From a virus: a stretch of DNA of 31,063 nucleotides. The notes under the pieces were generated by a model, which did no database searches, was not told the origin of the DNA, and saw nothing but the letters and a program-made list of their open reading frames with translations. The stretch's first letter is position 1, and each line of letters starts with the position of its first letter. The stretch covers positions 1-31,063 of the IMG/VR virus record IMGVR_UViG_3300025930_000026. One strand, given 5' to 3'. Below are positions 1 through 15,192 of this stretch, one piece after another. The position numbers were made by a program, and so were the translations under genes.

Positions 1-73
1 CATCGCCTTATCGACAAGCTTGCAGGGCCCGCGCTATCTTATGACAATCTGTCCACCACAGGAGTATGATATC

Positions 74-409
74 ATGCCCGGCGCCATTCGGATATCGCGC
101 AAGGTCACCGTCAGCTGGGCCACCGCCCCGCAGGCTCCGATCCCGGATCCCTATCCGATGAGCCAGACCGAATTCCAGCAGCTCTGCCGCGAGCTTGGTA
201 TCACCAATGCCATCACGGCGGCGGAGCTGTTCGGTCTCTCCGCCCGGACCTGCCAGCGATATCACTACGGCAAGCTCGACGTCCCCGGCCCGCTCGCCCG
301 GCTGCTGCGGCTGACCACGTCACTGAACCTTGGGCAGGACAAGCTACGCCGTTATGCCAAGCCGTTGACACCAAAGGGTACTCGACACCGGCGCCCTCCG
401 AGTCTATGA
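74..409 (+). CDS. Small helix-turn-helix-like protein
   Basis: A 111-residue protein of unknown role. I chose the ATG at 74 because ACAGGAG lies about ten bases upstream; an in-frame ATG at 41 and a TTG at 20 lack such a site. Residues about 44-80 (AITAAELFGLSARTCQRYHY and the following PGPLARLLRL) look like a small helix-turn-helix of the Cro/XRE kind, where the LFGLSARTCQRY stretch would be the turn and recognition helix. The C-terminus is basic. It precedes the NusG-like gene by 19 bases and so probably shares its transcript. It may be a small DNA-binding regulator of the late genes; that is inference from the fold-like pattern and position. The true start could lie further upstream, outside good evidence. 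Confidence 0.6.
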   Translation: MPGAIRISRKVTVSWATAPQAPIPDPYPMSQTEFQQLCRELGITNAITAAELFGLSARTCQRYHYGKLDVPGPLARLLRLTTSLNLGQDKLRRYAKPLTPKGTRHRRPPSL

Positions 410-428
410 CCTCACGCGGAGGCGAATC

Positions 429-929
429 ATGGCCCGATCGGATTGGGCGGCGATCCTGACCGAGCCTGCCGCCGAATACACCGCCCACACAGAATTGCGC
501 CGCTTCGGGCTCGACCCGTACATGCCGCAGATCAACAGGCGCCACGCCACCCGGGCTGGCGCCTTCGTCGCACGCGCCTACCCGCTGTTCCCGCGCTACC
601 TGCTGATCCCGATCAACACCGCACGCGACCCGGCGGTTCGTTTTGCCCGCGGCATATGCCGGCATCGCCACATCCTCGCCGACGACGACGGCCGTATCTG
701 GCGTGCGCCGGCCAAGGTCATCGACGCGGTTCGCGAGGCCGAGACCACTGGCCAGTTCAACGAGATCCTGCACAAGGGCGACACCGTCACGCTCGCCTAC
801 GGCGTGCTCGCGACCGTGCGCTTCGTGATGTCGGACACCGCGAGCGACGGCATGGTCGAGCTGCTGATGCCGCTGTTCGGCGGCTCGCGCGCCACCGTGC
901 GCGCCGATAAAATCGTCCACCACGTCTAG
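429..929 (+). CDS. NusG/RfaH-like transcription elongation factor, phage-encoded
   Basis: 166 residues. The N-terminal part (about 5-100) has the pattern of the NusG N-terminal domain: W6, then TEPAAEYTAHTELRRFG, the YMPQ element (31-34) and YPLFPRYLLIPI (51-62), matching the LFPxY core of NusG and RfaH. The C-terminal part (about 115-160) begins with KGDTV and ends RATVRADKI, as a KOW domain would. NusG proteins bind the RNA polymerase clamp; specialised paralogues such as RfaH and LoaP act on chosen operons as antiterminators. A strong GGAGG at 418-422 sits six bases before the ATG. Being directly before the terminase and the whole structural cluster, it may help polymerase read through this long operon. 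The family call is firm; the antitermination role is inference. Confidence 0.82.
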   Translation: MARSDWAAILTEPAAEYTAHTELRRFGLDPYMPQINRRHATRAGAFVARAYPLFPRYLLIPINTARDPAVRFARGICRHRHILADDDGRIWRAPAKVIDAVREAETTGQFNEILHKGDTVTLAYGVLATVRFVMSDTASDGMVELLMPLFGGSRATVRADKIVHHV

Positions 930-1090
930 CGTTCTGATATCGCGGACCCCCAACAACTTGACGGAGCGACAAAATCGCGAGTAGGTTGCCCGGCAATCTC
1001 TGCCAGTCCAGTTTCCGGGTCGACCGGGTGTCCTCGGAGGATTGTCAGGAAGGCACACCGGATGGGCTTCGCCCAGACCGAGTCGAGGAC
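930..1090 (+). promoter_or_regulatory. Leader region before the terminase genes, possible weak promoter
   Basis: This gap of about 160 bases is the longest non-coding stretch in the window. It holds TTGACG at 958-963, a good -35 match, followed after 18 bases by TAGGTT at 982-987, a poor -10 match. A GGAGG at 1036-1040 has no well-placed start codon behind it in the terminase frame. A short inverted repeat, TGGGC-TTC-GCCCA at 1063-1075, lies just before the likely start of the next gene. In-frame upstream starts (GTG 1028, TTG 986) could extend the next protein into this gap. The promoter call is weak and rests only on these matches. Confidence 0.25.
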
Positions 1091-1624
1091 ATGCCGAAGA
1101 ATCCAGACCGACCGAAGATCAAGTACAAGCGCGTCAAGAAGGCCCCACCGCCGCCGCTGACGCGCGAGCAGATCCAAGAACGGAATCTGGCCAAGCTGGA
1201 AAAGCGTCACCGCATCAACCCGGCCATGGTCACCCAGATGATTCTCAAGGAGCGCGGGCTCCTGACCCAAATCTGCCGATCGCTGAAAATTCCGCGCACC
1301 ACGCTGAAGCACTACATCGAGAAGCACGACGAGTGTGCCGAGGCCTTGGTCCAAGCTCGTGAAGCGATGGGCGACAAGGCCGAGAAGAAGCTGTTCCAGC
1401 TGATCGACCAAGGCGACGTGCGTTGCCTGCTCTACTATCTCTCGACCGTGCACGCCGCGCGCGGCTACGGCATCAACCGGGCCGCGGCGGCGGCGGCGGC
1501 AGGCAACGACATCGACGGCCGGCCGGTCTACGTCGAGACGGTCAACATCATCGGCATCCCGTCCGGCACCTTCCTGCCGAAGGAGACCGCGACCAGAGAA
1601 AATCTGGTCATCGATCACCGATGA
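1091..1624 (+). CDS. Probable small terminase subunit
   Basis: 177 residues from the ATG at 1091. The N-terminus is Lys/Arg/Pro-rich. Residues about 55-78 (RGLLTQICRSLKIPRTTLKH) form a plausible helix-turn-helix, followed by helices ending in LFQLIDQGDVRCLLYYLSTV, a layout seen in small terminase subunits, which bind the packaging site and recruit the large subunit. An Ala run (131-137) comes from a GCG-rich stretch. Position directly before the large terminase, with one small gene between, supports the call. The start is uncertain: GAGG lies only two bases before this ATG, while GTG 1028 or TTG 986 would add 21 or 35 residues. Another helix-turn-helix DNA-binding role cannot be excluded. Confidence 0.65.
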   Translation: MPKNPDRPKIKYKRVKKAPPPPLTREQIQERNLAKLEKRHRINPAMVTQMILKERGLLTQICRSLKIPRTTLKHYIEKHDECAEALVQAREAMGDKAEKKLFQLIDQGDVRCLLYYLSTVHAARGYGINRAAAAAAAGNDIDGRPVYVETVNIIGIPSGTFLPKETATRENLVIDHR

Positions 1625-1914
1625 TCAGCCCGTTCCGCTATCGGCCGACCGATCCCTCGGCCGACACCGATCACGATGGCGAGATCGCCGACTGGGAAGA
1701 CAATGGATTGTCGAATGCACTGGCGTGGGCGTCGGTCACGTTCGTACCGACATGGTGTCAGAACGAAGAGCACTGGACCTCTCGTGTCGCCGCTTACGTC
1801 TGGACGTCCTGTCCCTGCTGCGCGTTTTTTCGCGGTATCACCATCGGCATCGCTCTCAGTGTGCCGCTATGGCTGCTAATTCTCCTGCTCCTGTACCTCG
1901 CGCTCAGGGGATGA
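1621..1914 (+). CDS. Small membrane protein between the terminase genes
   Basis: 97 residues. The ATG overlaps the stop of the small terminase gene (ATGA at 1621-1624), and its own stop overlaps the ATG of the large terminase (ATGA at 1911-1914), so it is very likely translated by coupling. The first 40 residues are acidic and polar. A Cys-containing stretch follows (TWCQNEEHW, TSCPCCAFF), then one long hydrophobic segment at about 72-95 (GIALSVPLWLLILLLLYLAL) that should span the membrane, with a charged end. I do not recognise a family. A holin-like role is possible but not supported by anything beyond the single membrane segment; the location between terminase genes is unusual for that. 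Confidence 0.6.
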   Translation: MISPFRYRPTDPSADTDHDGEIADWEDNGLSNALAWASVTFVPTWCQNEEHWTSRVAAYVWTSCPCCAFFRGITIGIALSVPLWLLILLLLYLALRG

Positions 1915-3236
1915 AGCCGCGCAAGAAGCAGCTGACGCCGCGCCAGCCCGATCCGAACTTGAAGTACGCAACACCGAAAACCGATTCCGCTTCTACCAGT
2001 GCGGCCAGAAAAGCCGCAGCCGAGGCCAAGCTCGGCCAGAAGTTCATCGACACGCTGTTCGCCGAGGACATCCGCCACAAGGCGATCCACGGCGGCAGGG
2101 GATCGGCAAAAAGCTGGAGCGTCGCCACCTACCTGCCGATCAAGGCAGGCCAGTCCCGCAAGCGCATCGTCTGCGCGCGCCAGTTTCAGAATTCCATTCG
2201 CGATTCGTCCAAGGAGCTGGTCGAGAAACGCATCCGCGCTCTCGGCATGTCGAACCAGTTCACCATCACCGATCGCTACATCGTGCACAACGGCACGCAG
2301 AGCCAGTTCATCTTCGTCGGCCTTGAGCGCAACGTGGAGAGCATCCGCTCGCTTGAAGGCGCCGACATCGTCTGGGTCGAGGAAGCCAAGACGACCAACT
2401 CCAAGAGCATGGAGATCCTGCTGCCGACCGTGCGCGCCGCAGGCTCCGAGCTGATCTGGACGTGGAATCCCGACAAGGCCACCGACCCGGTCGACGCCTA
2501 CTTCAGAAAAGGAACGCCGCCGCCGCGCTCGATCGTCACCAAGGTGAGCTGGCGCGACAATCCGTTCTTCGAGCACACCGAAATGCCGGGTGAGATGCAG
2601 GTGCTCAAGGACGGCAACTACGCGCGCTATCTGCATGTGTGGGAAGGCGAGTATGACGTATCCTACGAAACCAAGGTATTTACTAACGTCCGAGTCGGGC
2701 GGCCCAACGTTCCTGCTAATACTCCTCCTCTGTACGGCATGGATTTTGGCTTTGGCAGCGATCCTTCCTTTGTGGTGAAGGTGTTCGTGCTGCACGCGGA
2801 GAGGCAGATCTACATCGCCAACGAGTCGTCCGGCCGTGTGACGATGGACCAGCTGCCGCACATGGTGCGGCAGGTCACGAGAGAAGACGGCGACGCGGTC
2901 AAGTGTGATTCCAGCCAGCCCGGCACGATCGAGTTTCTCCAGAGCCGCGGCATCAACGCGATGCCGGCCAAGAAGGGCCCGGGGTCTGTCAAAAGCGGCA
3001 TCCTGTTTCTTCAGGGCTTCGAGATCGTCATCGATCCGAACTGCGAGAAGATGCAGGAGGAGGCGCACCTCTACAGCTGGATGACCGACCGGCTGACCAA
3101 CCAAGCACTGTCCACGCCGGTCGACGCCTTCAATCACGGTTGGGACGCCACGCGCTACGCCACCGAGGACGCCGCGATGGACTTCGAGGCGATGGAAGAC
3201 GACGATGGCGGCGTGCTTTCCTTGAAACTATGGTAG
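1911..3236 (+). CDS. terL: Large terminase subunit (packaging ATPase and nuclease)
   Basis: 441 residues. This is the motor that drives DNA into the prohead and cuts it. The ATPase domain shows a Walker A motif GGRGSAKS at 61-68, a Walker B-like IVWVEEA at 153-159 with catalytic Glu, and TWNPDK at 184-189, typical of the coupling motif. The nuclease domain begins at YGMDFGFGSDPSF (about 275-286); its likely metal-binding acids are D278, D333 (in KCDSSQPG) and D405 or D412 (PVDAFNHGWDATRY). The order and length fit the Terminase_3/PBSX-like group. I chose the ATG at 1911, which overlaps the preceding stop as ATGA and follows CAGGGG; the reading frame extends further upstream but only over the membrane gene. 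Confidence 0.95.
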   Translation: MKPRKKQLTPRQPDPNLKYATPKTDSASTSAARKAAAEAKLGQKFIDTLFAEDIRHKAIHGGRGSAKSWSVATYLPIKAGQSRKRIVCARQFQNSIRDSSKELVEKRIRALGMSNQFTITDRYIVHNGTQSQFIFVGLERNVESIRSLEGADIVWVEEAKTTNSKSMEILLPTVRAAGSELIWTWNPDKATDPVDAYFRKGTPPPRSIVTKVSWRDNPFFEHTEMPGEMQVLKDGNYARYLHVWEGEYDVSYETKVFTNVRVGRPNVPANTPPLYGMDFGFGSDPSFVVKVFVLHAERQIYIANESSGRVTMDQLPHMVRQVTREDGDAVKCDSSQPGTIEFLQSRGINAMPAKKGPGSVKSGILFLQGFEIVIDPNCEKMQEEAHLYSWMTDRLTNQALSTPVDAFNHGWDATRYATEDAAMDFEAMEDDDGGVLSLKLW

Positions 3237-3245
3237 GAGCGGATC

Positions 3246-3440
3246 GTGGGATGTGGATGTGGCGGCAGATCGTACGCAAGGCCCGTAACCGGCGGGCGAA
3301 CCGGAAGTCAGCACGCGCCGCTCGCGCGTGTGGTGACTCAGCCCCGGCAGAATCACGCGCCGGCGATGGCAACGCCGAAAGTGGTGCAGGCTGCGGCACT
3401 GGCGCAGCGGCGCAGCGCGGTGGTGCGACGACAGGTATGA
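3246..3440 (+). CDS. Very small Gly/Cys-start protein before the portal
   Basis: 64 residues from a GTG start at 3246, with GGAG at 3236-3239 six bases upstream. The protein begins MGCGCGGRSYARPVTGG and ends in a basic tail (RRSAVVRRQV). Its stop overlaps the ATG of the next small gene (ATGA at 3437-3440), which supports this frame as the coded one. The same DNA is also open in the next frame from an ATG at 3251, giving an Ala/Arg-rich product that would fuse to the following gene; I take that as a shadow. Small proteins of unknown role between terminase and portal are common in phages. No function can be given. Confidence 0.55.
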   Translation: MGCGCGGRSYARPVTGGRTGSQHAPLARVVTQPRQNHAPAMATPKVVQAAALAQRRSAVVRRQV

Positions 3441-3628
3441 CGACCGACCTCCAGCGGCTCGCGGTCGCCTGCAACAAGGCGGCCGATCACTATTGCGCGC
3501 ACCCCAAGCACGCCGGACCGGACACGATCGTCGATCTCTATCGTGCGATGGCCGCGCTCGCGGCCATGCTCGACAACCAGATGAGTCAGCAGCCGATCCA
3601 CGCGGTCGAGCAGAAGCACATGCACTGA
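3437..3628 (+). CDS. Small hypothetical protein before the portal
   Basis: 63 residues, starting MTTDLQRLAVACNKAADHYC and predicted mostly helical, with a second helix around DTIVDLYRAMAALAAMLDNQM. Its ATG overlaps the stop of the preceding gene (ATGA), and its TGA overlaps the portal ATG by one base (TGATG at 3626-3630), so translation is likely coupled from both sides. I do not recognise a family. A longer reading from an ATG at 3251 in the same frame is possible but has unusual Ala/Arg-rich content typical of an out-of-frame reading. Confidence 0.6.
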   Translation: MTTDLQRLAVACNKAADHYCAHPKHAGPDTIVDLYRAMAALAAMLDNQMSQQPIHAVEQKHMH

Positions 3629-4947
3629 TGCGTATCGTCGATTGGCTCACCAAGAGAAAGCCGGACCGCGTCGAGACCGACGAGCCGGCCAGCCCGATCT
3701 ACATCATGGGCGGCCAGCCGGTCCGCTTCCTGTCCAATCAGGCGATCGCGACCGCCGATGTTGCACAGCGGAAATCCCCGCAGTTATACAGAATCACCAA
3801 TTTCATCGCTTCGAGCGTCCAGTCGGTGCCGTGGTATTGCGAGGAGGATCCCGAGGTCAACGTCTCGGAGCGGCTCGGCGCGTCCAAGCTCAAGGCGCTG
3901 AACGACCTGCTTAAATCGCCCAACGACACCTACACGGCGCAGCAGCTCCAGTACTGGATCGCGCTCAATTTGATGCTCTACGCGCGCAGCCACTTCAAGG
4001 TTGGCGTCGGCACCAACGGCACGCCGAACGGGATTTATCCACTGGCCGCCAAGCATGTGAAGGGAGTTCTCAACAGCCGCGGCATCGTGGACAAGTACGA
4101 GTACGGCATGGGCGAGAACAAGACCACGCTGCCGAGCCGCCGCACCGCCGAGCGCGGCGGCGCGACCGGCGTGTCCTATGCGGCCGAGATCGCGTTCCCC
4201 TCACTCACCGGGCTGGTCGAGTACAACAAGGCGCCGGCAGCGATCGAGAGCCTCAGTGTTCCGCTCATGATCATCGACGCGCTGATGCAGCGCGCGCTCG
4301 ACACGGCTAGTGGCCATCCGAACGTCAAGTATGTGATCACCGCCGAGAAGACCATCACCAAGCAGCAGAAGGCGGCGCTGCTCAAGCATCTGGAGGAGAG
4401 CGCCGCGGGCGGCGAGCATTCCGGCGAGGTGCTGTTCCTCTACAACACCGATGTGAAGGTCCACACGCTCGACAACAAGCTGTCGGACATTCACTCGAAA
4501 CTGCCGCTTGACGACATGACGCGGCAGATCGCTGGCGTGTTTGGTGTGCCCGTCGCTCTGTTGGGACTCGGCTCCGCCGACGCCGCCAAATACGCCAGCA
4601 ACTATGTCGAGAGTCGTCTCAGCTTCTGGCAGGACACCGTGGTGCCCTGCTATCTCGTGCCGATCGCCGCCGGCATGACGCAGGCGATCTGTCCGCCCGG
4701 TGCGCGGGTTGCGTTCGATCTCGACAAGGTGCCGGCTTTGTGGGAAGGCCGCGCCAATCTCGGCAAGACGCTGTCCGCAGTCACCTTCCTGTCGAACAAC
4801 GAGAAGCGTGACGTGCTCGGCTTCGAGAAGATGGCGGGCGAGGACAAGCTTCCAGAAATCAAGCCGCCGGCCGCGGCCGCCAACGGACGCGACGGTGGCG
4901 ATCACGAGCGTGAGCCGGCCGACAACGGTGGGAGAGCATTGCAATGA
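3628..4947 (+). CDS. Portal protein, HK97 family
   Basis: 439 residues. The portal is the twelve-fold ring at one capsid vertex through which DNA enters and leaves, and to which the neck attaches. HK97-type signs: SPQLYRITNFIASSVQSVPW near the N-terminus, PLAAKHVKGVLN in the wing, YNKAPAAIESLSVPLMIIDALMQRALD leading into the stem helix region, and a C-terminal MTRQIAGVFGVPVALLGLGSADAAKYASNYVES segment typical of the family. It starts at an ATG that overlaps the previous stop by one base and ends overlapping the protease start (ATGA at 4944). The last 25 residues are polar and probably disordered. Placement between terminase and protease is the classic head order. Confidence 0.93.
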   Translation: MRIVDWLTKRKPDRVETDEPASPIYIMGGQPVRFLSNQAIATADVAQRKSPQLYRITNFIASSVQSVPWYCEEDPEVNVSERLGASKLKALNDLLKSPNDTYTAQQLQYWIALNLMLYARSHFKVGVGTNGTPNGIYPLAAKHVKGVLNSRGIVDKYEYGMGENKTTLPSRRTAERGGATGVSYAAEIAFPSLTGLVEYNKAPAAIESLSVPLMIIDALMQRALDTASGHPNVKYVITAEKTITKQQKAALLKHLEESAAGGEHSGEVLFLYNTDVKVHTLDNKLSDIHSKLPLDDMTRQIAGVFGVPVALLGLGSADAAKYASNYVESRLSFWQDTVVPCYLVPIAAGMTQAICPPGARVAFDLDKVPALWEGRANLGKTLSAVTFLSNNEKRDVLGFEKMAGEDKLPEIKPPAAAANGRDGGDHEREPADNGGRALQ

Positions 4948-5726
4948 AAGCGCAGTGGCAGATCGGCGACAAGATCCAGTGCAACATTCCTTTTTCGGCG
5001 GTCAAGACCGGGATCGATTCAGCTCCCGAGGGCTTCATCGCCGGCATTGCGTCGACTCCCTCGACCGATCGCCACGGTCACAAGGTCATGGCCAAGGCCT
5101 TCGACGACAGCATCAAGGAAAAGGGTCTCGCCGGTCCCGGCGGCGTGCAGCTGCTCGCCGGTCACGACTGGAGCAAGGTCGTCGGCCAGATCAAGAAGCT
5201 GGAGACGGTCAACGAGAAGCTGATGCTCGAAGGGCAGATGAATCTCGACGTCCCGCACGCCAAGGATCTGCACACCACGCTCAAGCACAATGGCGGGCTC
5301 AATTTTTCTGTCGGCTTCACGCTGCTGGAATTCGAATTCAACGACGTCATGGAAGACGAGGACGATCCATGGCTGATCGTGCAGAAGGGCGACCTGATGG
5401 AAGTGTCGATCGTGACTTTCCCATCGCTGAAGGACGCCAAGATGACTTTCGTCAAGGTGGGCACCGGCAACGGCATTGGGCCGCAGGAGCTGGACACCAT
5501 GGCCGAATTCGAGCGCGCCATTCTCGCCGACACGCTGGATGGCGCGATCCGCACCCGTAATCAGGCGCACAAGTTTGCCCTTTGGGCGAAACAGAATGTG
5601 CACCTGTTGCAGCCGAAGCTACCCTTGCTGGTGGATAAGGCCCCGACGCATCCCTTGCTGGATGTCTCCATGCTCAGGCCGATGGCGGATCTGATCGCCA
5701 AGGCGCGGGCGCAACTTCCATCGTAA
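4944..5726 (+). CDS. Prohead maturation protease, HK97 family
   Basis: 260 residues. This serine protease is packed inside the prohead, cleaves the N-terminal scaffold region of the capsid protein and then itself. The likely catalytic residues are visible in the usual order: His74 in LLAGHDWSKVVG, Ser122 in GLNFSVGF and Glu153 in DLMEVSIVTFPS. The N-terminal GFIAGIASTPSTDRHGHKVM (about 30-49) is the typical first strand pair with a conserved D. The C-terminal hundred residues, after the catalytic core, are more helical and may bind the capsid protein. It overlaps the portal stop by four bases. Only one Cys is present, unlike many neighbouring virion proteins. Confidence 0.92.
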   Translation: MKAQWQIGDKIQCNIPFSAVKTGIDSAPEGFIAGIASTPSTDRHGHKVMAKAFDDSIKEKGLAGPGGVQLLAGHDWSKVVGQIKKLETVNEKLMLEGQMNLDVPHAKDLHTTLKHNGGLNFSVGFTLLEFEFNDVMEDEDDPWLIVQKGDLMEVSIVTFPSLKDAKMTFVKVGTGNGIGPQELDTMAEFERAILADTLDGAIRTRNQAHKFALWAKQNVHLLQPKLPLLVDKAPTHPLLDVSMLRPMADLIAKARAQLPS

Positions 5727-5741
5727 CCAAGGGTTAAACCA

Positions 5742-7184
5742 ATGAACAAGGCCAAGCTCAACGCGCTCAAGTCGAGCGTGTACAAAGGTGCGTTCCTCAC
5801 CAAGGAAGCGCCCGCCGACACCAAGACCGCAGAGGCGCTGCTCAAGCCGCTGCTCGACGAAATGGCCGCGATCGTCGCTGCCTTGGAGAAATCCAAGAAG
5901 GACGCGGAGGCGCAGTACACCGAGCTGAACAACCACTTCGGCGGCGTCAAGGCGACGTCCGAGGAGCTGAAGACGACGGTGCAGAAGCACGCCACCGACT
6001 ACGCCGAGATGATCACGAAGCAGCAGATGCTTCAGCAGGCGCTCGATCAGGTGAAGAAGGAGCTGGACGCTCCGCTGCTCAAGGGCGGCAAGGATCTGGA
6101 GGACTCGGACCGCGCCGCGGCTGTCGAGCTTCAGCGCCGCGCCTTCCTGTTCAAGGGCGGTTGCGAGTGGGACTTCAAGCCGGACCTCGACAACCTCGTC
6201 GACGCCAAGCACTACCGCTCGGCGGTGCGCAAGATGATGCAGGTCGGCATCGAGTCGAAGCAGAAGATCGTTCGCACGCTCACCGCGGACGAGACCAAGG
6301 CGTTCGAAGCTTCCAGTCTCGACAGCGCGATGTTCTCTCCCGAGATGCTCGGCATCGAGATCAACTGCATCGTCGAGTGCGCCGAGCTGCTCGATCTCTA
6401 CAACAGCGTCACCGTCGGCAAGTCGACGTTCATGTATCCGCAGATCATGGACTACGGCGCGATCGGCCAGTACGACTGCGATGCGAAGTGCGACGCCGAA
6501 TACGGACCGGAAGGCAACATCACCTTCAAGTCCGGCAACGTGTCGGATTTCCGCGGCGTGTTCTGCTTCCAGCGCAAGACGCTCGCCGAGGCCAACTACG
6601 ACCTGCTCGCCTTCATGTATCAGGCAGCGGCGCGGTCCTACCGCATCAACCGCAATCGCGCGACCATGGTCGGCGACGGCGTCAACGAGCCGCTCGGCTG
6701 GTTGCAGGCGAACTGCTTCACCAAGCGCAGCACGCCGGCGTCCAGCTTCACCCATGTCGACTTCCGGCTGTTCCACGGCGGCGTGCCGCTGGAATACGGC
6801 GAGCTGACCACGGTGATGCACCAGAACACGTTCGCGTTCCTGACGTCGCAGACCGACGGCAACGGGCGCTTCCTGTATGGTGACGGCCTGCTCACCTACT
6901 CGCCGACGGACGTGCGCGAGCGCATCCGCATCTCCAACTGCCTGCCCGACCCGACGCACGGTCTGACGTTGAACGGCGCCGACAAGCCGTTTATCACCGG
7001 CGAGTTCATCGCTGCGACCGGTGCGTGGAAGCAGGCCTATTACGTCGTCAACAAGCGTCCGCTGTGGATCGAGCAGTGGGAAGGCAAGTCGACGGCGTGG
7101 TGCGTCGCCTATTCGTTCGGTGGTGAGGACGGCGGCTTCGTGGCCTGCTGCCCGGCGGCCAGCATCCTCACGGTCGGTCCTTGA
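5742..7184 (+). CDS. Major capsid protein, HK97 fold with N-terminal scaffold region
   Basis: 480 residues. The first 115 or so are Lys/Glu/Ala-rich and helical, with coiled-coil character (DEMAAIVAALEKSKKDAEAQ), matching the delta scaffold region removed by the protease. The capsid part follows: FEASSLDSAMFSPEML (188-202), the E-loop region around TFKSGNVSDFRGVF, the long helix AEANYDLLAFMYQAAARSYR, and GDGVNEPLGWL, a hallmark of the family. All 11 Cys lie at or after residue 141, none in the scaffold region. The ATG follows AAGGGT by about nine bases. A 6-bp hairpin (CGGTCC/GGACCG, 7175-7192) spans the stop codon. No separate scaffold gene is needed in this arrangement. Confidence 0.93.
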   Translation: MNKAKLNALKSSVYKGAFLTKEAPADTKTAEALLKPLLDEMAAIVAALEKSKKDAEAQYTELNNHFGGVKATSEELKTTVQKHATDYAEMITKQQMLQQALDQVKKELDAPLLKGGKDLEDSDRAAAVELQRRAFLFKGGCEWDFKPDLDNLVDAKHYRSAVRKMMQVGIESKQKIVRTLTADETKAFEASSLDSAMFSPEMLGIEINCIVECAELLDLYNSVTVGKSTFMYPQIMDYGAIGQYDCDAKCDAEYGPEGNITFKSGNVSDFRGVFCFQRKTLAEANYDLLAFMYQAAARSYRINRNRATMVGDGVNEPLGWLQANCFTKRSTPASSFTHVDFRLFHGGVPLEYGELTTVMHQNTFAFLTSQTDGNGRFLYGDGLLTYSPTDVRERIRISNCLPDPTHGLTLNGADKPFITGEFIAATGAWKQAYYVVNKRPLWIEQWEGKSTAWCVAYSFGGEDGGFVACCPAASILTVGP

Positions 7185-7229
7185 TTGGACCGCTCGTTCA
7201 CTGAACCAGATTAACGAGAGGAAAAGGTC

Positions 7230-7628
7230 ATGAATATCAACGTTGCCAGCCAGAACAACGGGCTTCTGGCTTTCTCTGCGGCGGCTGCGGCCAGCCCGCC
7301 GATCGACATCCGGCATCACGTCAACTTCGGCTTCACGTTCCACGCCACGGCGGATCTCGCAGCCGATGCGGTGTTCAACGTGCAGGCCGCGCCGGCGAGC
7401 GACGCCGACCCGTGTCTGCCGGGTGCGTTTGCCGACGTGCCGGAGGTGCCGTTGTGCAGCAATGGTGCGGTCCCGGCGCCCAACTCGCACATCGTCATCC
7501 CGTCCGGCACGCCGGCCGGTGCGATCTGCACGGCTACGCTGCCGTGTCGTCCCGGCGCCTTCATCAAGGTGCTGCCGGTCAGCGGCGCCGGCGTCGATGT
7601 CGTGGTGGTTCTCGGCGGCCCCCGCTAA
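7230..7628 (+). CDS. Putative head decoration protein, copy 1
   Basis: 132 residues directly after the capsid gene, with a strong AGGAAAAGG before the ATG. It is a paralogue of the next gene (7694-8116): both have a short N-terminal strand, then VDxRHHVxFxFTF or a close form, an AxxxxDAVF stretch, an AAPA motif, a TATLPCxPxAFI segment and an end in GPR. Four Cys (62, 76, 100, 106) match four in the second copy. The product should be mainly beta-strand. Small beta-rich proteins made from genes straight after the major capsid gene often decorate the capsid surface, so I infer such a role; no named family is recognised. Confidence 0.65.
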   Translation: MNINVASQNNGLLAFSAAAAASPPIDIRHHVNFGFTFHATADLAADAVFNVQAAPASDADPCLPGAFADVPEVPLCSNGAVPAPNSHIVIPSGTPAGAICTATLPCRPGAFIKVLPVSGAGVDVVVVLGGPR

Positions 7629-7642
7629 CCGGGAAGCATCAA

Positions 7643-7668
7643 CGCAGCTGCCCGAGAGGGCAGCTGCG
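7643..7668 (+). promoter_or_regulatory. Perfect 11-bp hairpin with GAGA loop between paralogous genes
   Basis: CGCAGCTGCCC at 7643-7653 is exactly complementary to GGGCAGCTGCG at 7658-7668, leaving a GAGA tetraloop, which is of the very stable GNRA kind. It lies 15 bases after the stop of copy 1 and 13 bases before the AAAGGAAG site of copy 2. No run of U follows, so a simple intrinsic terminator is unlikely. It may protect the upstream mRNA from 3' exonucleases, act as a processing site or partial terminator, and so set the ratio of the two proteins. Structure is seen; role is inferred. Confidence 0.7.
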
Positions 7669-7693
7669 GCCTGCTCCATCAAAGGAAGACGCC

Positions 7694-8116
7694 ATGGGCA
7701 TGTTCAATACCGCCAACCAGCATCAAGGCATCGTCGCGTGGTCGGCTGTCGCGACCAATCCTGCTCCCCCTGTCGACCTGCGCCACCACGTCGGTTTTTC
7801 CTTCACGTTCAACGTGAAGGCGGACATCTTGGTTGATGCGGTCTTCGAGTTCGCTGCTGCGCCGGCTGATCCAGCGAATCCATGCGTTCCGCTGCTGCCC
7901 CAGTACAAGGTTCAGGAAGTGCTGACCTGCGCGGCGTCGTGGGGTGCGGTGCCGGCGGGTGATACCTTCGTCACCATTCCGGCCGGCACGTTGGCGGGCT
8001 CGGTCTGTACGGCGACGCTGCCGTGCAAGCCGGACGCTTTCATTCAGGTGGAGCCGGCAAGCGGTGATACCGGCAAGATCGAGGTGGTGATCACGCTCTC
8101 CGGGCCGCGGACCTGA
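7694..8116 (+). CDS. Putative head decoration protein, copy 2
   Basis: 140 residues from the ATG at 7694, preceded by AAAGGAAG. It is a paralogue of the protein at 7230-7628, sharing DLRHHVGFSFTFN, DAVFEFAAAPA, VCTATLPCKPDAFI and a C-terminal LSGPR. Its four Cys (64, 79, 105, 111) line up with those of copy 1, which suggests conserved disulfides or metal sites. The pair probably arose by tandem duplication and has diverged well. As with copy 1, a role on the outer capsid surface is inferred from position and beta-rich character only. The two may build alternating or distinct decoration sites. Confidence 0.65.
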   Translation: MGMFNTANQHQGIVAWSAVATNPAPPVDLRHHVGFSFTFNVKADILVDAVFEFAAAPADPANPCVPLLPQYKVQEVLTCAASWGAVPAGDTFVTIPAGTLAGSVCTATLPCKPDAFIQVEPASGDTGKIEVVITLSGPRT

Positions 8117-8118
8117 CC

Positions 8119-8526
8119 ATGCGGGTTCAGGTCGGACGCAAGTTGCGAGTCGGCCCGGGTGACGAGGTCGTCATCCGCGGTCGTCTCCCTGCGTCTGGCA
8201 AGCTTGGTCGGCTGTTCGTGTTCGCATCCGAGAACGGCGCGGAGTTCAGCCCCTACGTGCCTCACGTTGCCGACGCGCTCGTCGTCAACGGGCGGCCAAC
8301 ATTCATGACTCCGTTGAGCCTTCGCATTGTCGGCCCGGAAGCAGCGCGATCGCTGTCGTTCGTTGCCGACATCGACGGCTTCGTTTGCGTCATGCAGGAG
8401 GTCGACGCCTTGGATGATCCGAAGGCGAAGATCAAAATGACGCGCAAGGTTAACCCGACGCTCGGTTGGGTCGGTTGGTTCCAGCGAAAGTGTGCAGCGT
8501 GGCAGACACCGAAACTCACGTCGTGA
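8119..8526 (+). CDS. Hypothetical beta-rich protein
   Basis: 135 residues, beginning two bases after the stop of decoration copy 2. The N-terminus MRVQVGRKLRVGPGDEVVIRG and following segments alternate hydrophobic and polar residues like a beta-sandwich. The C-terminus is basic with Trp residues (LGWVGWFQRKCAAWQ). I recognise no family. No clear ribosome site lies directly before the ATG, so coupling to the previous gene is likely. From position it could be another head-surface or head-completion protein. Confidence 0.6.
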   Translation: MRVQVGRKLRVGPGDEVVIRGRLPASGKLGRLFVFASENGAEFSPYVPHVADALVVNGRPTFMTPLSLRIVGPEAARSLSFVADIDGFVCVMQEVDALDDPKAKIKMTRKVNPTLGWVGWFQRKCAAWQTPKLTS

Positions 8527-8792
8527 TGCTGGTTGTCAGCGGCCAAGGTCACGACACCCAGTGGTTCGATTACGTCACCAACTATTTCGCCCAGCCGACT
8601 CGGGTCGAGTGGGACAAGGGCACGATGTTCGCCGTGCTGCCGTCCGACACGGCAGGGTTTTTGATGACGCGCAACTACGCGCGACTGATGACGGAAGCCG
8701 AGATCGAGGAGTACACTGCGCCGGCACAGAAGTCCGAGCCGAACGTTGAATCGTCCCGGGCCAAGGCCCACAAAAGAGGAGAGTCGTCATGA
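8499..8792 (+). CDS. Small hypothetical head-region protein
   Basis: 97 residues if started at the GTG at 8499, which follows GAAAG by about eight bases; the ATG at 8526 overlaps the previous stop as TGATG and would give 88 residues. The body GHDTQWFDYVTNYFAQPTRVEWDKG is followed by FAVLPSDTAGFLMTRNYARLM and a polar, basic C-terminus. No family is recognised and there are no Cys residues. It ends overlapping the ATG of the 31-residue peptide (ATGA at 8789-8792). Start choice is undecided; the coupling pattern used elsewhere favours 8526 while the weak site favours 8499. Confidence 0.55.
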   Translation: MADTETHVVMLVVSGQGHDTQWFDYVTNYFAQPTRVEWDKGTMFAVLPSDTAGFLMTRNYARLMTEAEIEEYTAPAQKSEPNVESSRAKAHKRGESS

Positions 8793-8884
8793 TCGTCGTG
8801 AGATGCTCCAGCGCCTGCGCGCCGAACACGGCCGTACCGCTGGCACCCCCGCCTTGCTTCCAGTGTCCGCCGGCGGCTCCTTGA
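8789..8884 (+). CDS. 31-residue Cys/Pro-rich micropeptide
   Basis: A very short gene, MIVVRCSSACAPNTAVPLAP followed by PPCFQCPPAAP. It has one of the best ribosome sites in the window, AGAGGAGAG at 8775-8783, and its ATG overlaps the preceding stop as ATGA. Four of 31 residues are Cys, one in a PPCFQCPP motif, and seven or more are Pro. A terminator-like hairpin follows 18 bases after the stop. The strong site and clean coupling argue for a real product rather than chance. It might be a structural or metal-binding peptide in the Cys-rich virion; no homologue is known to me. Confidence 0.5.
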   Translation: MIVVRCSSACAPNTAVPLAPPPCFQCPPAAP

Positions 8885-8902
8885 TCGCCGATTGACTAAC
8901 CG

Positions 8903-8940
8903 CCCGGAGGTCCGCCCGCGATCTCCGGGTTTCATCTTAG
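8903..8940 (+). terminator. Possible intrinsic terminator after the head-decoration genes
   Basis: CCCGGAGGT at 8903-8911 pairs with ATCTCCGGG at 8921-8929 (nine pairs with one G-U), with a nine-base loop, followed by TTTCATCTTAG. The U run is short and interrupted, so termination would be partial. It lies in the only gap (8885-8952) in this part of the cluster and would separate the capsid and decoration genes from the neck and tail genes, allowing higher expression of the former. Confidence 0.45.
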
Positions 8941-8952
8941 TGGAGCGCCGCC

Positions 8953-9651
8953 ATGATGCATTTCACGGTCGAGGACTACACCGCGGTTGACGCCACCTGT
9001 CAGAAATGCTGCTGCCAGAAACTCAACCTCAAGCCCGGCACGGTCACCAAGGTCTCGGTCGGCTACGCGTCGTGGGCGGTGCCGATCGGCCAGCTGCACT
9101 GCACGCCTCAGTTCCAGCTTGAGCTGATGGACACCTGTCCGGTGCCGGTCGGCAGCAATATGCCGCCGCAGGCGACCGCCGAGATCAAGTTCTCGACGCC
9201 GGTCAACGCGCTGCTCGAAAACACCCTCACTGCCATGATTACCGACCCGGAAGCGGTCGCGCTGACGTTCAAGCTGCTGGCGCTGTACGGGCCGAAGAAC
9301 GGCAAGCTCGATCTCAAGCCCGACGGCACGTTCTCGTACCTGCCGGTGAACGGCTTTTCGGGTCAGGAGCGGTTCTACGTCAGCGCCTCCGACGGATTCA
9401 ACGACGTCGTCTTCGAGGTGATGATCGCGGTCGGCATCGACCCCGCCACCATGGCGGCGACGCCGCACGTCAGCGTCGGCCCGGCGACCGTCGACAGCCG
9501 ATACTTCAACGTCAGCTTCCCGGTGATCGTCACGCCGGCAGCCAACGAGTGCGAGGTCTGGCGGCTTACGGTTTTGCAGACCGCGATGGACTGTGCCTGT
9601 ACCTGCTTCACGCGCTCCGACTGTTTCGATATCGGCATCGTCAAATGCTAG
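8953..9651 (+). CDS. Cys-rich protein with cadherin-like Ig domain
   Basis: 232 residues. Residues about 70-160 match bacterial cadherin-like/VCBS-type Ig domains: PPQAT, LLENTLTAMITDPE, ALYGPKNGKLDLKPDGTFSY and GFSGQERFYVSASDG. Such domains occur in surface-exposed adhesive proteins and in phage head or tail decorations. Flanking regions carry 12 Cys, clustered at CQKCCCQ (16-22) and in the last 30 residues (MDCACTCF, SDCF), ending VKC. GGAG at 8942-8945 serves the start. Placed between the capsid and connector genes, it may be a head-surface fibre or decoration protein that binds cells or surfaces. Domain call is good, location in the virion is inference. Confidence 0.72.
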   Translation: MMHFTVEDYTAVDATCQKCCCQKLNLKPGTVTKVSVGYASWAVPIGQLHCTPQFQLELMDTCPVPVGSNMPPQATAEIKFSTPVNALLENTLTAMITDPEAVALTFKLLALYGPKNGKLDLKPDGTFSYLPVNGFSGQERFYVSASDGFNDVVFEVMIAVGIDPATMAATPHVSVGPATVDSRYFNVSFPVIVTPAANECEVWRLTVLQTAMDCACTCFTRSDCFDIGIVKC

Positions 9652-10349
9652 GCACGATTCCCAATCGACCGCTCAACGAACCGCCGTTTCCGATCGGCGA
9701 GGAGACGGCGCTCGACTGGGAAGCCCGACTGGGCATCGAGTTCATGCGCTCGCACGCCAAGATCGACGACGTGCAGTCGGTGATGGACGAGCAGCTGCGG
9801 CTCTATCGATCGGCGGCGATGGAGTCGGCCGAGCACTACACCGGGCTGCTGCTGAGCCGCCAGAAGACGGTGGAGGAGGCGGCGGAAGGACCGGCGCGAA
9901 GCCGGCCGGGCAAGCCGTTCTACACCCATGTGCTGCAATACCCGGTCGCCGACGGTTACGTGTACCTCTACGGCGGCACGCACATCGTCGACAACGCTAC
10001 CATCCGAGTGCCGCCCGGCACGCGCAGGGTCAAGATCCCGATCCGCAAGGACATCATCGACCTGACCAACTGCTGCGATCCGTGCGCGAAGCCGTGGATG
10101 TACAATGGCGGCATGCTGCTGTCGTATCGGGCCGGCTACAAGTCGGCCGCCGACGTGCCGCCGTCGGTCATTCTTGGAATGTTGCAGTTCATTACGTGGT
10201 GCATCGAGCATCCGGGTGACGAGCTGCTCACCCAGCGCAATCGGGTGGAGACCCGCGCCGGCCTCGCCGGCTTGCAGGGCTCCAACAACATCGCGATGAT
10301 CTCCGGGGCGTTGGAAACGTGGCGGGTCGTCGACCCGGAGGCGTTCTGA
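9645..10349 (+). CDS. Probable head-tail connector protein
   Basis: 234 residues from the ATG at 9645, overlapping the previous gene by seven bases. It has the helical layout of connector proteins that bind below the portal: EARLGIEFMRSHAKIDDVQS, LRLYRSAAMESAEHYTGLLL near the N-terminus, a beta middle region (YVYLYGGTHIVDNATIRVPP), and a C-terminal helical stretch ILGMLQFITWCIEHPGD with the ending GSNNIAMISGALETWRVVDP, as in gp6-like connectors where the last segment reads SGALxLW. Cys are clustered at NCCDPC. Its place after the capsid genes and before the adaptor fits. Family call moderate, from pattern recall. Confidence 0.65.
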   Translation: MLGTIPNRPLNEPPFPIGEETALDWEARLGIEFMRSHAKIDDVQSVMDEQLRLYRSAAMESAEHYTGLLLSRQKTVEEAAEGPARSRPGKPFYTHVLQYPVADGYVYLYGGTHIVDNATIRVPPGTRRVKIPIRKDIIDLTNCCDPCAKPWMYNGGMLLSYRAGYKSAADVPPSVILGMLQFITWCIEHPGDELLTQRNRVETRAGLAGLQGSNNIAMISGALETWRVVDPEAF

Positions 10350-10774
10350 TGAAGGATCCCGGCAGTCCAAAAATTCACGAGCTGGTCCACCGTGTGGCGC
10401 TGTGCTCGCAGAAGGATGTCGTGGTCAACTCCTCGACCATGGAGCTGCGCAGGACTGGTGTGGTCTGGGCTTGGGCGCGGATCAAGTCGCACTACGGTTT
10501 GCCGATGTTCACCGGTCAGCTCGGCTACGCGATCATGGACCCGGTCACCAAGGCGACGCACGCCATCACGGTGCGCGATGGTTTGGTCGAGTTCAGCGAC
10601 ACCGCCTACGTTTACGAGGAGCCGCGCAAGTCGCAGCCGCGCTGGTACAAGATCCTCGGCTATTCCGAGGTCAAGGGGTTCACTGTTCTGGTGGCGCGCT
10701 TGGTCGAGAAGTCGGACTACGCGATCCCGCCGCAGAACAGTCTCACGCCGCAGCAATCGCCGGTTACGCTATGA
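10349..10774 (+). CDS. Probable head-tail adaptor/head closure protein
   Basis: 141 residues, ATG overlapping the previous TGA by one base. The pattern IHELVHRVALCSQKDVVVNS followed by RTGVVWAWARIKS matches small beta-barrel head-closure proteins (SPP1 gp16-like), which have a VAL/VTIQ strand and a WAxI motif. These rings join connector to tail and help hold DNA in. The C-terminal part SQPRWYKILGYSEVKGFTVLVARLVEK continues the barrel. Next in line is a gp10-like protein, which is the usual neighbour. I am fairly sure of a neck role, less of the exact family. Confidence 0.62.
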   Translation: MKDPGSPKIHELVHRVALCSQKDVVVNSSTMELRRTGVVWAWARIKSHYGLPMFTGQLGYAIMDPVTKATHAITVRDGLVEFSDTAYVYEEPRKSQPRWYKILGYSEVKGFTVLVARLVEKSDYAIPPQNSLTPQQSPVTL

Positions 10775-10848
10775 GCACCCGACAGGCGGTCATCGCCGGT
10801 CTCGTTCTTGCTGCTGTCTGCATCATCATAGTGGTCGTGTTTAACTGA
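10771..10848 (+). CDS. 25-residue single-span membrane peptide
   Basis: MSTRQAVIAGLVLAAVCIII followed by VVVFN. Its ATG overlaps the adaptor stop (ATGA at 10771-10774) and its TGA overlaps the ATG of the next gene by one base (TGATG at 10846-10850), so it fills exactly the space between two neck genes. Nearly all residues from 6 to 24 are hydrophobic, enough for one membrane pass, with a single Arg at the N-terminal side. The exact fit between neighbours argues for a real gene. Function unknown; tiny membrane peptides in phages may affect lysis, superinfection or assembly at the membrane. Confidence 0.55.
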   Translation: MSTRQAVIAGLVLAAVCIIIVVVFN

Positions 10849-11231
10849 TGGCTGGATTCGAAATCGAGTTCTCGCCGTGGGGTCGCTTCCGTGCTCGCCA
10901 GAAGCCGGGGGCGATCGAAGGTTGGCTGCACTCGATCGGCAAGGCGGGTGTCGAAGCGTTTCGCGGTGGCATGGGCAAATATCCGGGACCGTCTGCTCCG
11001 GGGGCGTGGCCGAACAGCCGGACCGGGAATCTGAGGGGCTCGATCAATTACGAGGTTGGCGGCGGCGGCTCGTTTCACGCTACTGTGACCATCGGCACCG
11101 ACATGCCGTACTCAGGTTTCCTGCGGCATGGCACCAGCAAGATGGCGCGGCGCAAGATGAGCGACAACGCGCTGCAAGAGGGCATGAGAGCGGGCCGGCT
11201 AGGGCGCTGGGTCGAGTGGACAAAAGGTTAA
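10848..11231 (+). CDS. HK97 gp10-like neck/tail completion protein
   Basis: 127 residues. Signs of the family: an N-terminal amphipathic helix (GWLHSIGKAGVEAFR), then PNSRTGNLRGSINYEV, VTIGTDMPYSGFLRHGTSKMARRKM, corresponding to the S/TGxLRxSI and VGT-xPYAxFLExGT motifs of gp10-like proteins. These bind at the head-tail interface or complete the tail top. A one-base overlap with the preceding peptide starts it. It has no Cys. Confidence in the family is good from the two linked motifs. Confidence 0.75.
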   Translation: MAGFEIEFSPWGRFRARQKPGAIEGWLHSIGKAGVEAFRGGMGKYPGPSAPGAWPNSRTGNLRGSINYEVGGGGSFHATVTIGTDMPYSGFLRHGTSKMARRKMSDNALQEGMRAGRLGRWVEWTKG

Positions 11232-11246
11232 CCAGAGGAAACGGCA

Positions 11247-11459
11247 ATGTCTGACGAGAGCAACGAAGCCACGAAGGAAGAAGGCACGGCGCCAACGCAG
11301 AAGGAGCAGATCGCCAGCGCAGGTAAGGCACTCGCTGGTCAGGGGTTCAGCAAGGAGCAGATCGCCAAGCAGCTGAGTTCGAAGTTTCAGGTGACGGTCG
11401 ACGAAGCGACTGCTGCGCTCGCTGACAACGACGACGAGCCGAAAAAAGACGACGCTTGA
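11247..11459 (+). CDS. Small acidic hypothetical protein
   Basis: 70 residues with a clear AGAGGAAACGG before the ATG. It is highly charged: an acidic Glu/Thr-rich N-terminus, a central helical part ASAGKALAGQGFSKEQIAKQ then LSSKFQVTVDEATAALA that resembles a small three-helix domain, and an acidic end DNDDEPKKDDA. No family is recognised. It lies between two neck genes and may be a non-structural assembly helper. It contains no Cys. Confidence 0.6.
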   Translation: MSDESNEATKEEGTAPTQKEQIASAGKALAGQGFSKEQIAKQLSSKFQVTVDEATAALADNDDEPKKDDA

Positions 11460-11461
11460 TC

Positions 11462-12025
11462 ATGGATGCGGTCGTAGCACCGGCCAAGCAACGTTTCTTG
11501 CCGGCGCTCGCCGAACAGATCGCGCTGTGGTTTCCTGAATTGAATGGCCGCGCGCTCGCGGTCTCCGAGGTGTCGATCACCAAGGAGAACGTGCCGACGC
11601 TGCCGCTGGCGATGGTGGCGTTCATTCGCTCGACCGCGAACCCGCCGTCGCACAGCAATGCCGAGATGTTCGAAGTCGTTGACACCTTCATCGTCGACTT
11701 CTGGCTGGAGCCGGCGCGCTACAAGAAGGCCAACGGCACCGAGACGCCGTTCTGGAGCTACTACGATTACGAGGCCATTCGCGATACGCTGCTGTCCAAC
11801 ATGGTGCGTTGGGAGACGCCGGGCGGCGAGCGGCTTGCTTATCGTGGCCTGACGATTGAAGCCGAGCCACTGGCCGTGACGCTGACGTTCACGTTCATGG
11901 CGACGTTCCGCTGGTGTCCGAACAAAAAGGAATTCGGCGAACCGTTCACCATCGGCTTCAACCTGTGCACGGATCCGGGCTGCGTGCCGGATCCGTGCCC
12001 GGAGCCAGTCGACCCATGCCAGTGA
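11462..12025 (+). CDS. Probable tail terminator/completion protein with Cys-Pro tail
   Basis: 187 residues from the ATG at 11462; a TTG at 11456 is an alternative and no clear ribosome site is seen. An N-terminal helix (FLPALAEQIALWFPEL) is followed by strands: LPLAMVAFIRSTA, EVVDTFIVDFWLEP, LTIEAEPLAVTLTFTFMATFRW. That alpha-beta layout and the place just before the sheath fit tail terminator proteins, which cap the tube and join it to the neck. The last 21 residues hold five Cys in a Pro-rich tail (GCVPDPCPEPVDPCQ), an uncommon addition. The functional call rests on position and fold-like pattern. Confidence 0.52.
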   Translation: MDAVVAPAKQRFLPALAEQIALWFPELNGRALAVSEVSITKENVPTLPLAMVAFIRSTANPPSHSNAEMFEVVDTFIVDFWLEPARYKKANGTETPFWSYYDYEAIRDTLLSNMVRWETPGGERLAYRGLTIEAEPLAVTLTFTFMATFRWCPNKKEFGEPFTIGFNLCTDPGCVPDPCPEPVDPCQ

Positions 12026-12063
12026 CTTCTCGCTTCTCAACCCCGACGAACAGGAGGGCGCCC

Positions 12064-12285
12064 ATGCCCGTCATCTACGTAAAAACGAAGCCCGGTCGCC
12101 GGGCATTCTTCGAAGGCAAGATCATCCCGGAGGACAAGTTCGTTCCGGTGACCGAGAATTCGTACACTCGTCGCCTGATTGATCACTGGGAGGATCTCGA
12201 AGAGCAGGGCGGCAAGAAGGAGAAGACCAAGGCCAAGATCGTCGCGGCGCATGCCGCACCCAGCTACGCCAAGAAAGACAACTAA
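12064..12285 (+). CDS. DUF2635-like small protein before the sheath
   Basis: 73 residues starting MPVIYVKTKPGRRAFFEGKI, with AGGAGGG at 12052-12058 ahead of the ATG. It matches the DUF2635 pattern (VKPxxGxxVRxP...LPxxGxxVxxxxYWxRRLxDGD): here IPEDKFVPVTENSYTRRLID follows. In Mu and many relatives this gene (gp38) stands directly before the tail sheath gene, as it does here. Its function is not established. The C-terminus is Lys-rich and likely disordered. An upstream ATG at 12016 in frame lacks a good ribosome site. Confidence 0.72.
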   Translation: MPVIYVKTKPGRRAFFEGKIIPEDKFVPVTENSYTRRLIDHWEDLEEQGGKKEKTKAKIVAAHAAPSYAKKDN

Positions 12286-12323
12286 ACCTCAAACACGCCG
12301 ACCCGGCGAAAAGGAGCGACCCC

Positions 12324-13841: not shown

Positions 13842-13871
13842 CCTGATCGCACGACAGAAAGGAGCTAACCC

Positions 13872-14318
13872 ATGACTTGCGAAAATCAGGTCGGCGTGAA
13901 GAACATCCTCATGACGTTCCTCGACTGCGACACCGGCGCGATTTACGGGCCGATTTCGCACAAGCTGTCGAGCGAGGATCTCCCGACGTGGCGGCTGTGC
14001 GCCTACAACAACGACCCGCTGCCGCAAGGCTACGTGAAGCGGCAGCCGACCAACCCGGAGGTGGAGATCAAGGTCATCCGTGACCTGAGAATTCCGCTCG
14101 CGATGTATCAGGGCTGTAGCGACGTTGCGCTACAGGTCGAGTACTTCAATGGGCTGGTCTACTCCGCCGCGAAGGGCACTGGAACAGGTGACGAGAAGTC
14201 CGACACCCACGAGGTGACGCTCACGATCTCGTTCAAGGAGATCGACGAGCTGCTGCCCGCGGGCACGCTCGAATCCACCGAGCAAGTCGTTCAGCCGACC
14301 TTCGCAACAGCGGCGTAG
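13872..14318 (+). CDS. Tail tube protein, Mu gpM-like
   Basis: 148 residues with AGAAAGGAG just before the ATG. It lies directly after the sheath, the fixed place of the inner tube gene in Mu-like tails. The middle NPEVEIKVIRDLRIPLAMYQGCSDVALQVEYFNGLVYS and the late HEVTLTISFKEIDEL are strand-rich, as in tube proteins that form a hexameric beta-barrel. Four Cys are present. The family call is from position plus beta character, since the sequence itself is divergent. Confidence 0.75.
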   Translation: MTCENQVGVKNILMTFLDCDTGAIYGPISHKLSSEDLPTWRLCAYNNDPLPQGYVKRQPTNPEVEIKVIRDLRIPLAMYQGCSDVALQVEYFNGLVYSAAKGTGTGDEKSDTHEVTLTISFKEIDELLPAGTLESTEQVVQPTFATAA

Positions 14319-14342
14319 CAAACGGACGACAGGCGACCGAGA

Positions 14343-14368
14343 CGGAAGCAGGATAACATCCTCTTCCG
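14343..14368 (+). promoter_or_regulatory. Strong hairpin between tube and tail chaperone genes
   Basis: CGGAAG (14343-14348), a bulged C, and AGGAT (14350-14354) pair with ATCCT (14358-14362) and CTTCCG (14363-14368) around an AAC loop: eleven pairs and one bulge. No U run follows. It lies in an 80-base gap, the second longest non-coding stretch here. The AGGAT of the arm recurs at 14388-14392 inside the ribosome site AAGGAT of the next gene, so the ATCCT arm could pair with either copy. It may lower expression of the chaperone relative to the tube. Confidence 0.62.
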
Positions 14369-14398
14369 CTCGTGTTGCGCGTCAGCAAGGATCAACTC

Positions 14399-15034: not shown

Positions 15035-15189
15035 CCGAGCGAGCAGAGCAGTACCGCTACTATTCTGCTTCGGCCGGCGACCTGAGACAGCTCAGCATCG
15101 GGCAGCTGACGCTGCGCATCAATCAATTCACCAAGGTGCATAGCCAAGAGATGAAGTACCGGGTCCAGCTCGCCGGAGGTAAAGCGTAG
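15013..15189 (+). CDS. Frameshift extension of tail chaperone (G-T-like)
   Basis: In the -1 frame relative to the chaperone, the DNA is open from 14851 to 15189. The part past the chaperone stop reads VAERAEQYRYYSASAGDLRQ then LSIGQLTLRINQFTKVHSQE, a plausible helical domain, and ends three bases before the tape measure ATG. It has no good start codon or ribosome site of its own. A -1 slip at U UUU C (15010-15014, codons CGT TTT CTA) would join 205 residues of the short form to 58 more, total 263. Lambda and many other long-tailed phages make such a G-GT pair by -1 frameshifting. GGGC at 15025-15028 is a second possible site. Confidence 0.62.
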   Translation, partial: SRVAGRVAERAEQYRYYSASAGDLRQLSIGQLTLRINQFTKVHSQEMKYRVQLAGGKA

Positions 15190-15192
15190 GCC

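Follow-up and report, generated by a model that had tools for sequence, protein, structure and literature searches.

The window analysed here is a stretch of DNA of 31,063 bases that makes up a complete IMG/VR virus record and that, judging from its genes, comes from a contractile-tailed phage. The following features were placed on it.

74–409, plus strand: gene of a small helix-turn-helix (HTH) protein, a possible regulator, ahead of nusG (open reading frame; HTH-family matches are weak only)
429–929, plus strand: gene of a NusG/RfaH-like protein (NGN + KOW) of 166 aa with an ATG start, here called nusG (profile matches, predicted fold, conserved place)
930–1090, plus strand: gap of ~160 nt from the nusG stop to the terS start (sequence)
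958–987, plus strand: sigma70-like late promoter, TTGACG (958–963), 18-nt spacer, TAGGTT (982–987) (conserved over 20 related loci)
995–1093, plus strand: structured leader RNA of ~97 nt, from the predicted +1 to the terS ATG (covariation)
1006–1042, plus strand: leader domain 1, with helix 1006–1009/1039–1042 and hairpin 1014–1024/1030–1038, conserved tip YGACCGGGUGUC (covariation, helices 1–2)
1052–1084, plus strand: leader domain 2, a three-tier hairpin, 1052–1054/1082–1084, 1059–1061/1078–1080 and 1063–1066/1072–1075 (covariation, helices 3–4)
1091–1624, plus strand: terminase small subunit, terS (weak match to Sf6 terS, Pfam E=1.3e-3; PHROG 309; position)
Between terS and TerL, plus strand: small gene with a hydrophobic C-terminus (sequence)
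1911–3236, plus strand: terminase large subunit, TerL, with which the long genes of the structural run begin (Pfam Terminase_3, E=4e-27)
3628–7184, plus strand: portal, prohead protease (S78) and major capsid genes (Pfam/PHROG matches)
12324–13841, plus strand: tail sheath of a contractile tail (PHROG 165, E=1e-50)

The sheath gene is followed on the plus strand by a long tape-measure-like gene, a baseplate hub gene and tail-fibre-like genes, and all gene-like open reading frames from terS (1091) to the end of the window lie on this strand. The initial annotation had described a one-strand run of about 38 genes after nusG; the single strand stands, and the number comes down to about 35 when the list of open reading frames is counted by eye. 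It had also made nusG the head of the structural operon, which is right in so far as the gene lies directly upstream, but nusG is outside the late transcript defined by the conserved promoter and ends immediately before that promoter. At the far end of the window, the successive tail-fibre-like genes at 24530–26638, 27036–29825 and 29831–end have repeated motifs in common (e.g. ELDTEKVAKAGDTMTG), which suggests that the three arose by duplication.

On the other side of nusG, homologues of the HTH gene (44–56% identity) were found upstream of nusG in 13 relatives. In locus L009, about 350–400 nt before nusG and just before the HTH gene, there is a palindrome, CCGTCA-N3-TGACGG, with similar ones in L002 and L016; it is operator-like and possibly belongs to the HTH protein. 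An extremely GC-rich palindromic tract of simple repeats (CGCGCTGCGC...) was seen upstream of the HTH gene in L002, L007 and L016, about 450–650 nt before nusG. Several contigs, the window (1–20) among them, end within about 430–520 nt of nusG, which may reflect a break in the assembly or else the physical end of the genome.

The product of 429–929 is a member of the NusG superfamily, with an NGN fold and a KOW barrel, as had been recognised from the sequence at the outset: the gene occupies exactly this place, PLFPRY stands at residues 52–57 and the C-terminus is KOW-like. The 166-aa protein reaches 22.8 bits against Pfam NusG (PF02357; gathering score 22.2), 39.9 bits against the NCBIfam RfaH model TIGR01955 (E=4.2e-10; below the equivalog cutoff of 144.5) and 19.2 bits against UpxY (NF033644; below the curated cutoff of 100), and it matches PHROG 6386, ‘transcription antiterminator’, at E=9e-6. 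All 14 aligned phage homologues matched the NusG, RfaH and UpxY models, and a profile built from these 14 aligned with the RfaH of E. coli at 83% probability and with its NusG at 4%. AlphaFold2 modelled the protein (pLDDT 84.8) as an NGN domain, for the most part over 90, and a KOW barrel in the beta form at 70–79, the CTD spanning 67–79. The nearest PDB structure to this model was RfaH bound to an elongation complex (8pen_P; Z 12.0, 2.2 Å over 98 residues), the complex being a paused one, and NusG was also among the top PDB matches; the KOW part gives a Z of about 8 against KOW domains. The CTD was predicted in the beta form only, without the alpha-hairpin of an autoinhibited CTD, a prediction in which AlphaFold2 may miss a second state.

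In a tree of 64 rows, housekeeping NusG formed a clade (99/98) that excludes the window’s phage group, itself a separate clade (100/98), the placement of the long rows (the Microcystis phage, Ssp-JY38 and plasmid ActX) being unsure. The protein thus does not cluster with housekeeping NusG, and the description of it as a specialised member of the family is upheld. As far as sequence comparison can tell, its affinity is with specialised paralogues of the RfaH type more than with housekeeping NusG. The homologue alignment was also run as a profile against 289 genomes from a single bacterial class, the one to which a Rickettsiales MAG belongs, and only 64 gave a match at E<=1e-6; where both kinds were scored, RfaH-like paralogues received about 100 bits and housekeeping NusG about 20 bits, from a profile that includes two bacterial RfaH-like rows.

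As a direct query, the window protein matched nothing in 50,697 phage records or in plasmids, and exact back-translated patterns of it matched nothing in viral contigs, so that relatives had to be reached through TerL. This search gave 18 IMG/VR relatives with 76–87% TerL identity, and nusG (53–72% identity) is in the same place in all 15 of the close relatives whose sequence extends that far. In deeper relatives (TerL 65–69%), nusG is at 36–44% identity and still directly before terS. Most TerL relatives at 55–61% TerL identity are without it, as are the Agrobacterium phages Milano and 7-7-1. On the TerL tree, nusG occurs in a single part of the family only (29 rows, 98/91), and there a subclade of four rows, L077–L080, is without an orthologous nusG.

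The initial annotation had proposed the gap at 930–1090 as the site of a loading signal for the protein. The gap does hold a conserved promoter and an RNA supported by covariation, and it is without an ops-like motif. Summed over 20 loci, the best promoter match came to 160, against 125.7 +/- 3.9 for dinucleotide shuffles, of which 0/200 scored as high. In 18 of the 20 loci the RNA element begins 6–10 nt after the end of the -10 box, and in the window the predicted transcription start is near 994. In L017, an extra gene lies between nusG and the promoter, and promoter and RNA are still together. In L050, the nusG stop is followed at 5757–5795 by a hairpin that has a T-rich tail, suggesting that the nusG transcript of this locus ends before the late promoter.

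As for the ops-like motif that the initial annotation had suggested looking for, there is no exact ops in the window, near-matches number 37 against 32.3 expected, and none falls in the leader. The lack of such a motif above chance favours an RNA-guided, LoaP-like mode. Terminator-like hairpins are likewise at chance (16 against 12.2 expected in 1–16000, and 8 against 9.7 in the rest); the strongest on the plus strand, at 8902, has a poor T tract, and the one at 14343 was not flagged by the terminator scan. This agrees with the earlier remark that the run contains only weak terminator-like hairpins, and no strong terminator was found for the protein to overcome, which would make Rho or pausing the likelier target.

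The leader downstream of the promoter is a conserved, previously uncatalogued folded RNA. In an alignment of 13 sequences, the four-helix structure leaves 96% of cells paired, 11/23 pairs are changed on both sides, and there are 35 double-change cells against 9.8 in shuffles. With 19 sequences, in an alignment made by the covariance model and hence leaning towards it, 94.3% of cells are paired, 17/27 pairs are changed on both sides and 74 double-change cells compare with 21.9 +/- 4.5 after shuffling. Sliding the partners by 1–3 columns brings pairing down to 30–47% with the 13 sequences and to 30–50% over both alignments. Departures within the stems, read on the plus strand, are G-U in 13 cases and A-C in 4 when one invariant G-U pair is excluded (26 and 4 when it is included), counts that are not independent as the rows are related; this excess of G-U over A-C argues for a transcript rather than duplex DNA. 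The core of domain 2, GGCA..CGGRUG/CCGAGUC, is conserved. Folded one sequence at a time, most members have unremarkable energies (z +0.2 to -1.6; L050, -3.6), and it is thus covariation that carries the structural claim. A search of Rfam gave no family match for the element and only three chance snoRNA matches outside it (E up to 10). A pseudoknot between loop and 3' end (YGAC with GUCR), which pairs in 12/13 sequences with only one position varying, was considered and is unproven. Each domain of the window’s leader contains the string GACCGRGU (1022–1032 and 1077–1084), possibly as two copies of one recognition motif; elsewhere in the window, this tip repeat is at chance level.

A covariance model (R1) trained on 15 close relatives found the element after nusG, ahead of the next gene, in loci outside its training set, at 52 bits in L017 and 39 in L083/084, and again next to nusG at 22–31 bits in L047–049, 20.3 in L050 and 18.5 in L074/076, the two lowest scores being near those of chance matches (up to 19.8 bits) and believable mainly by position. 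Retraining on 19 sequences, including L017, L047, L049 and L083 (which, with their near-copies, are not counted), gave a model (R2) that scored the held-out loci L050 and L074 at 30.7 and 26.4 bits, with chance matches at or below 16.6. In records of up to 70 kb there is a single credible copy, and it adjoins nusG. Model searches did not find the element in L077–L080, in outside clades or in other terminase relatives without an orthologous nusG; orthologous nusG and element always co-occur, and the subclade that lacks the one lacks the other too. When viral contigs were screened with a pattern of the element in DNA form, 20 stretches were retrieved, of which 14 belong to the same phage group and 6 are chance matches, unrelated and without NusG.

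NusG-like genes of other kinds were seen near terminase genes in other phages. In the phages of L151 and L152, neither the element nor the orthologous nusG is present; their NusG-like gene (3055–3561, G007; 1527–2030, G008), a very different one, lies 7–8 kb upstream of TerL, with opposite-strand genes apparently in between. Matches of 16–20 bits lying 3–4 kb from these NusG-like genes were considered as a detached element and rejected as chance, since they appear from the sequence to sit among genes read on the other strand. In Microcystis phage vB_MweS-yong2 (OM681334.1), a NusG-like gene is the last one annotated (43606–44271) and terS (70–702) and TerL come first, so that NusG-like gene and terminase adjoin only if the record is circular or permuted; its product (UNJ22101.1) is very diverged from the window protein. 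In L156 (2561–5117), inspection by eye gave a NusG-like gene (G027), two small genes, a terS-like and a TerL-like gene. No RNA element was found at either end of the yong2 record, the ends being searched separately, or with G027. As these two other phages, of unrelated or distant lineages, also have a NusG-like gene just before terminase, this gene order could have had more than one origin. In Synechococcus phage Ssp-JY38, a sequence 4 kb before TerL faintly resembles NusG (E=5e-5).

The phage locus can be set beside several known systems. In its place it resembles lambda Q, whose antiterminator gene is directly upstream of the late promoter, and, with lambda Q/qut and HK022 put, it has in common a promoter-proximal signal and a long late operon of terminase, head and tail genes; Q and put, however, are unrelated to the NusG family in kind and mechanism, and the known phage antiterminators N, Q, put and p7 are other kinds of factor. 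The protein itself is most like RfaH, its best match in both NCBIfam and PDB, with which it shares NGN and KOW, a PLFP-Y-L core and a conserved RG pair. RfaH loads in operon leaders, at ops sites (PMC7819879), and rides with RNA polymerase. Unlike RfaH, to which it is about 18% identical (E. coli), the phage protein is phage-borne, has no ops motif and a structured RNA leader, and its CTD is predicted as beta and not as alpha-hairpin. In the Bacillota, LoaP is likewise a NusG paralogue of long operons, and its antitermination requires a leader RNA hairpin (PMC12691694). The conservation of leader RNA structure together with a NusG paralogue in the phage group is as in LoaP-type systems; the LoaP leader, in contrast, has a small UNCG hairpin and an intrinsic terminator, whereas the phage leader is about 97 nt, has two domains and shows no terminator. 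ActX and other plasmid NusG-like proteins are also mobile-element paralogues heading a long operon, but one for conjugation and not for phage late genes, and ActX is on a separate branch of the tree.

From the computed family, fold, promoter, RNA and association of gene with RNA, we infer that the protein is loaded at the leader, acts as an antiterminator and is directed against Rho or host silencing. In the scheme that we propose, a phage NusG paralogue would be encoded directly ahead of the late promoter, as Q is in lambda. Transcripts from the promoter at 958–987 would begin near 994, and their first ~97 nt would fold as a two-domain RNA. During or just after synthesis of the leader, the NGN domain would dock the protein on the polymerase clamp, recruited or activated by the leader either in the LoaP way, as a nascent RNA hairpin, or in the RfaH way, as a paused complex. 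Riding with the polymerase from there on, the protein would protect it against Rho, pausing and weak hairpins over the ~30 kb of the structural operon. Loading at the phage leader is the simplest reading of an elongation-factor gene right ahead of the late promoter, a structured RNA at the start of the late transcript and an operon of this length; two known NusG paralogues, RfaH and LoaP, load at leaders. On this analysis, we lean by a little towards a NusG-like protein in the lambda-Q position that is loaded at the leader and makes late transcription processive. The narrower proposition, RNA-guided processive antitermination by a viral NusG-family protein through a dedicated ~97-nt leader at the late-promoter +1, is put forward tentatively, at somewhat less than even confidence.

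A different role for the RNA has to be weighed, namely that it is a translational or stability operator of terS, perhaps bound by TerS or by a ribosomal or host factor, with the NusG-like protein acting independently. The leader usually ends at the terS Shine-Dalgarno/ATG, and an alternative helix might cover the two in the window; this masking helix is not conserved, however, with 3–7 of 7 pairs kept across relatives. The element also persists where the apparent terS start is about 10–50 nt past it (L047/049, L050, L074) and in L017, where a gene other than terS follows. Evolutionary distances are less favourable to the NusG reading. Element distances track those of terS at least as well as those of nusG, and a mirror-tree test for NusG as the partner of the element did not single it out over TerS: with TerL distance removed, element divergence correlates with NusG at 0.31 (permutation p 0.02) and with TerS at 0.52. 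Furthermore, one terS type is common to the element-bearing phages, and in phages without the nusG–RNA cassette terS is too diverged to be called orthologous. As nusG, RNA and terS type are inherited as one cassette, their co-occurrence does not single out nusG, and this inheritance, along with the stronger TerS correlation, keeps an RNA that serves TerS or translation as a live rival, although on balance an unlikely one.

Alternatively, the NusG-like protein could act genome-wide (anti-Rho, anti-silencing or host takeover) and load without a sequence signal, the leader being a put-like antiterminator or a riboswitch that works only in cis. Sequence-blind action is described for housekeeping E. 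coli NusG, and RNA that acts alone for HK022 put (PMC7819879 and PMC9378689, respectively). The Microcystis phage yong2 and the phage of G027, with a NusG-like gene and no element found, would also fit. The constant co-occurrence of orthologous nusG and element, and their joint absence from one subclade, speak against a genome-wide action, and we consider it more doubtful still than the operator. That the conserved block serves DNA packaging, as a pac/cos signal, and is not an RNA seems highly improbable, for although it adjoins terS, next to which packaging sites are often located, its stems covary as the sequence changes and tolerate G-U and mostly not A-C on the transcribed strand, and the block starts at the +1 of a conserved promoter.

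The available text of two reviews of the NusG family (PMC7819879, PMC6391919) names no phage-encoded specialised paralogue, and a literature search, with most subscription journals outside its reach, returned no account of a system of phage NusG and leader. In conclusion, the phage NusG, the late promoter and the folded leader suggest a distinct way of switching on late phage genes, in which a NusG paralogue would be loaded at the start of the late transcript. The leader and protein pair could serve as compact material for asking in vitro how NusG paralogues select their targets. If the proposal is true, phages and bacterial antibiotic and capsule operons would have reached, or would share, the same protection for very long operons.
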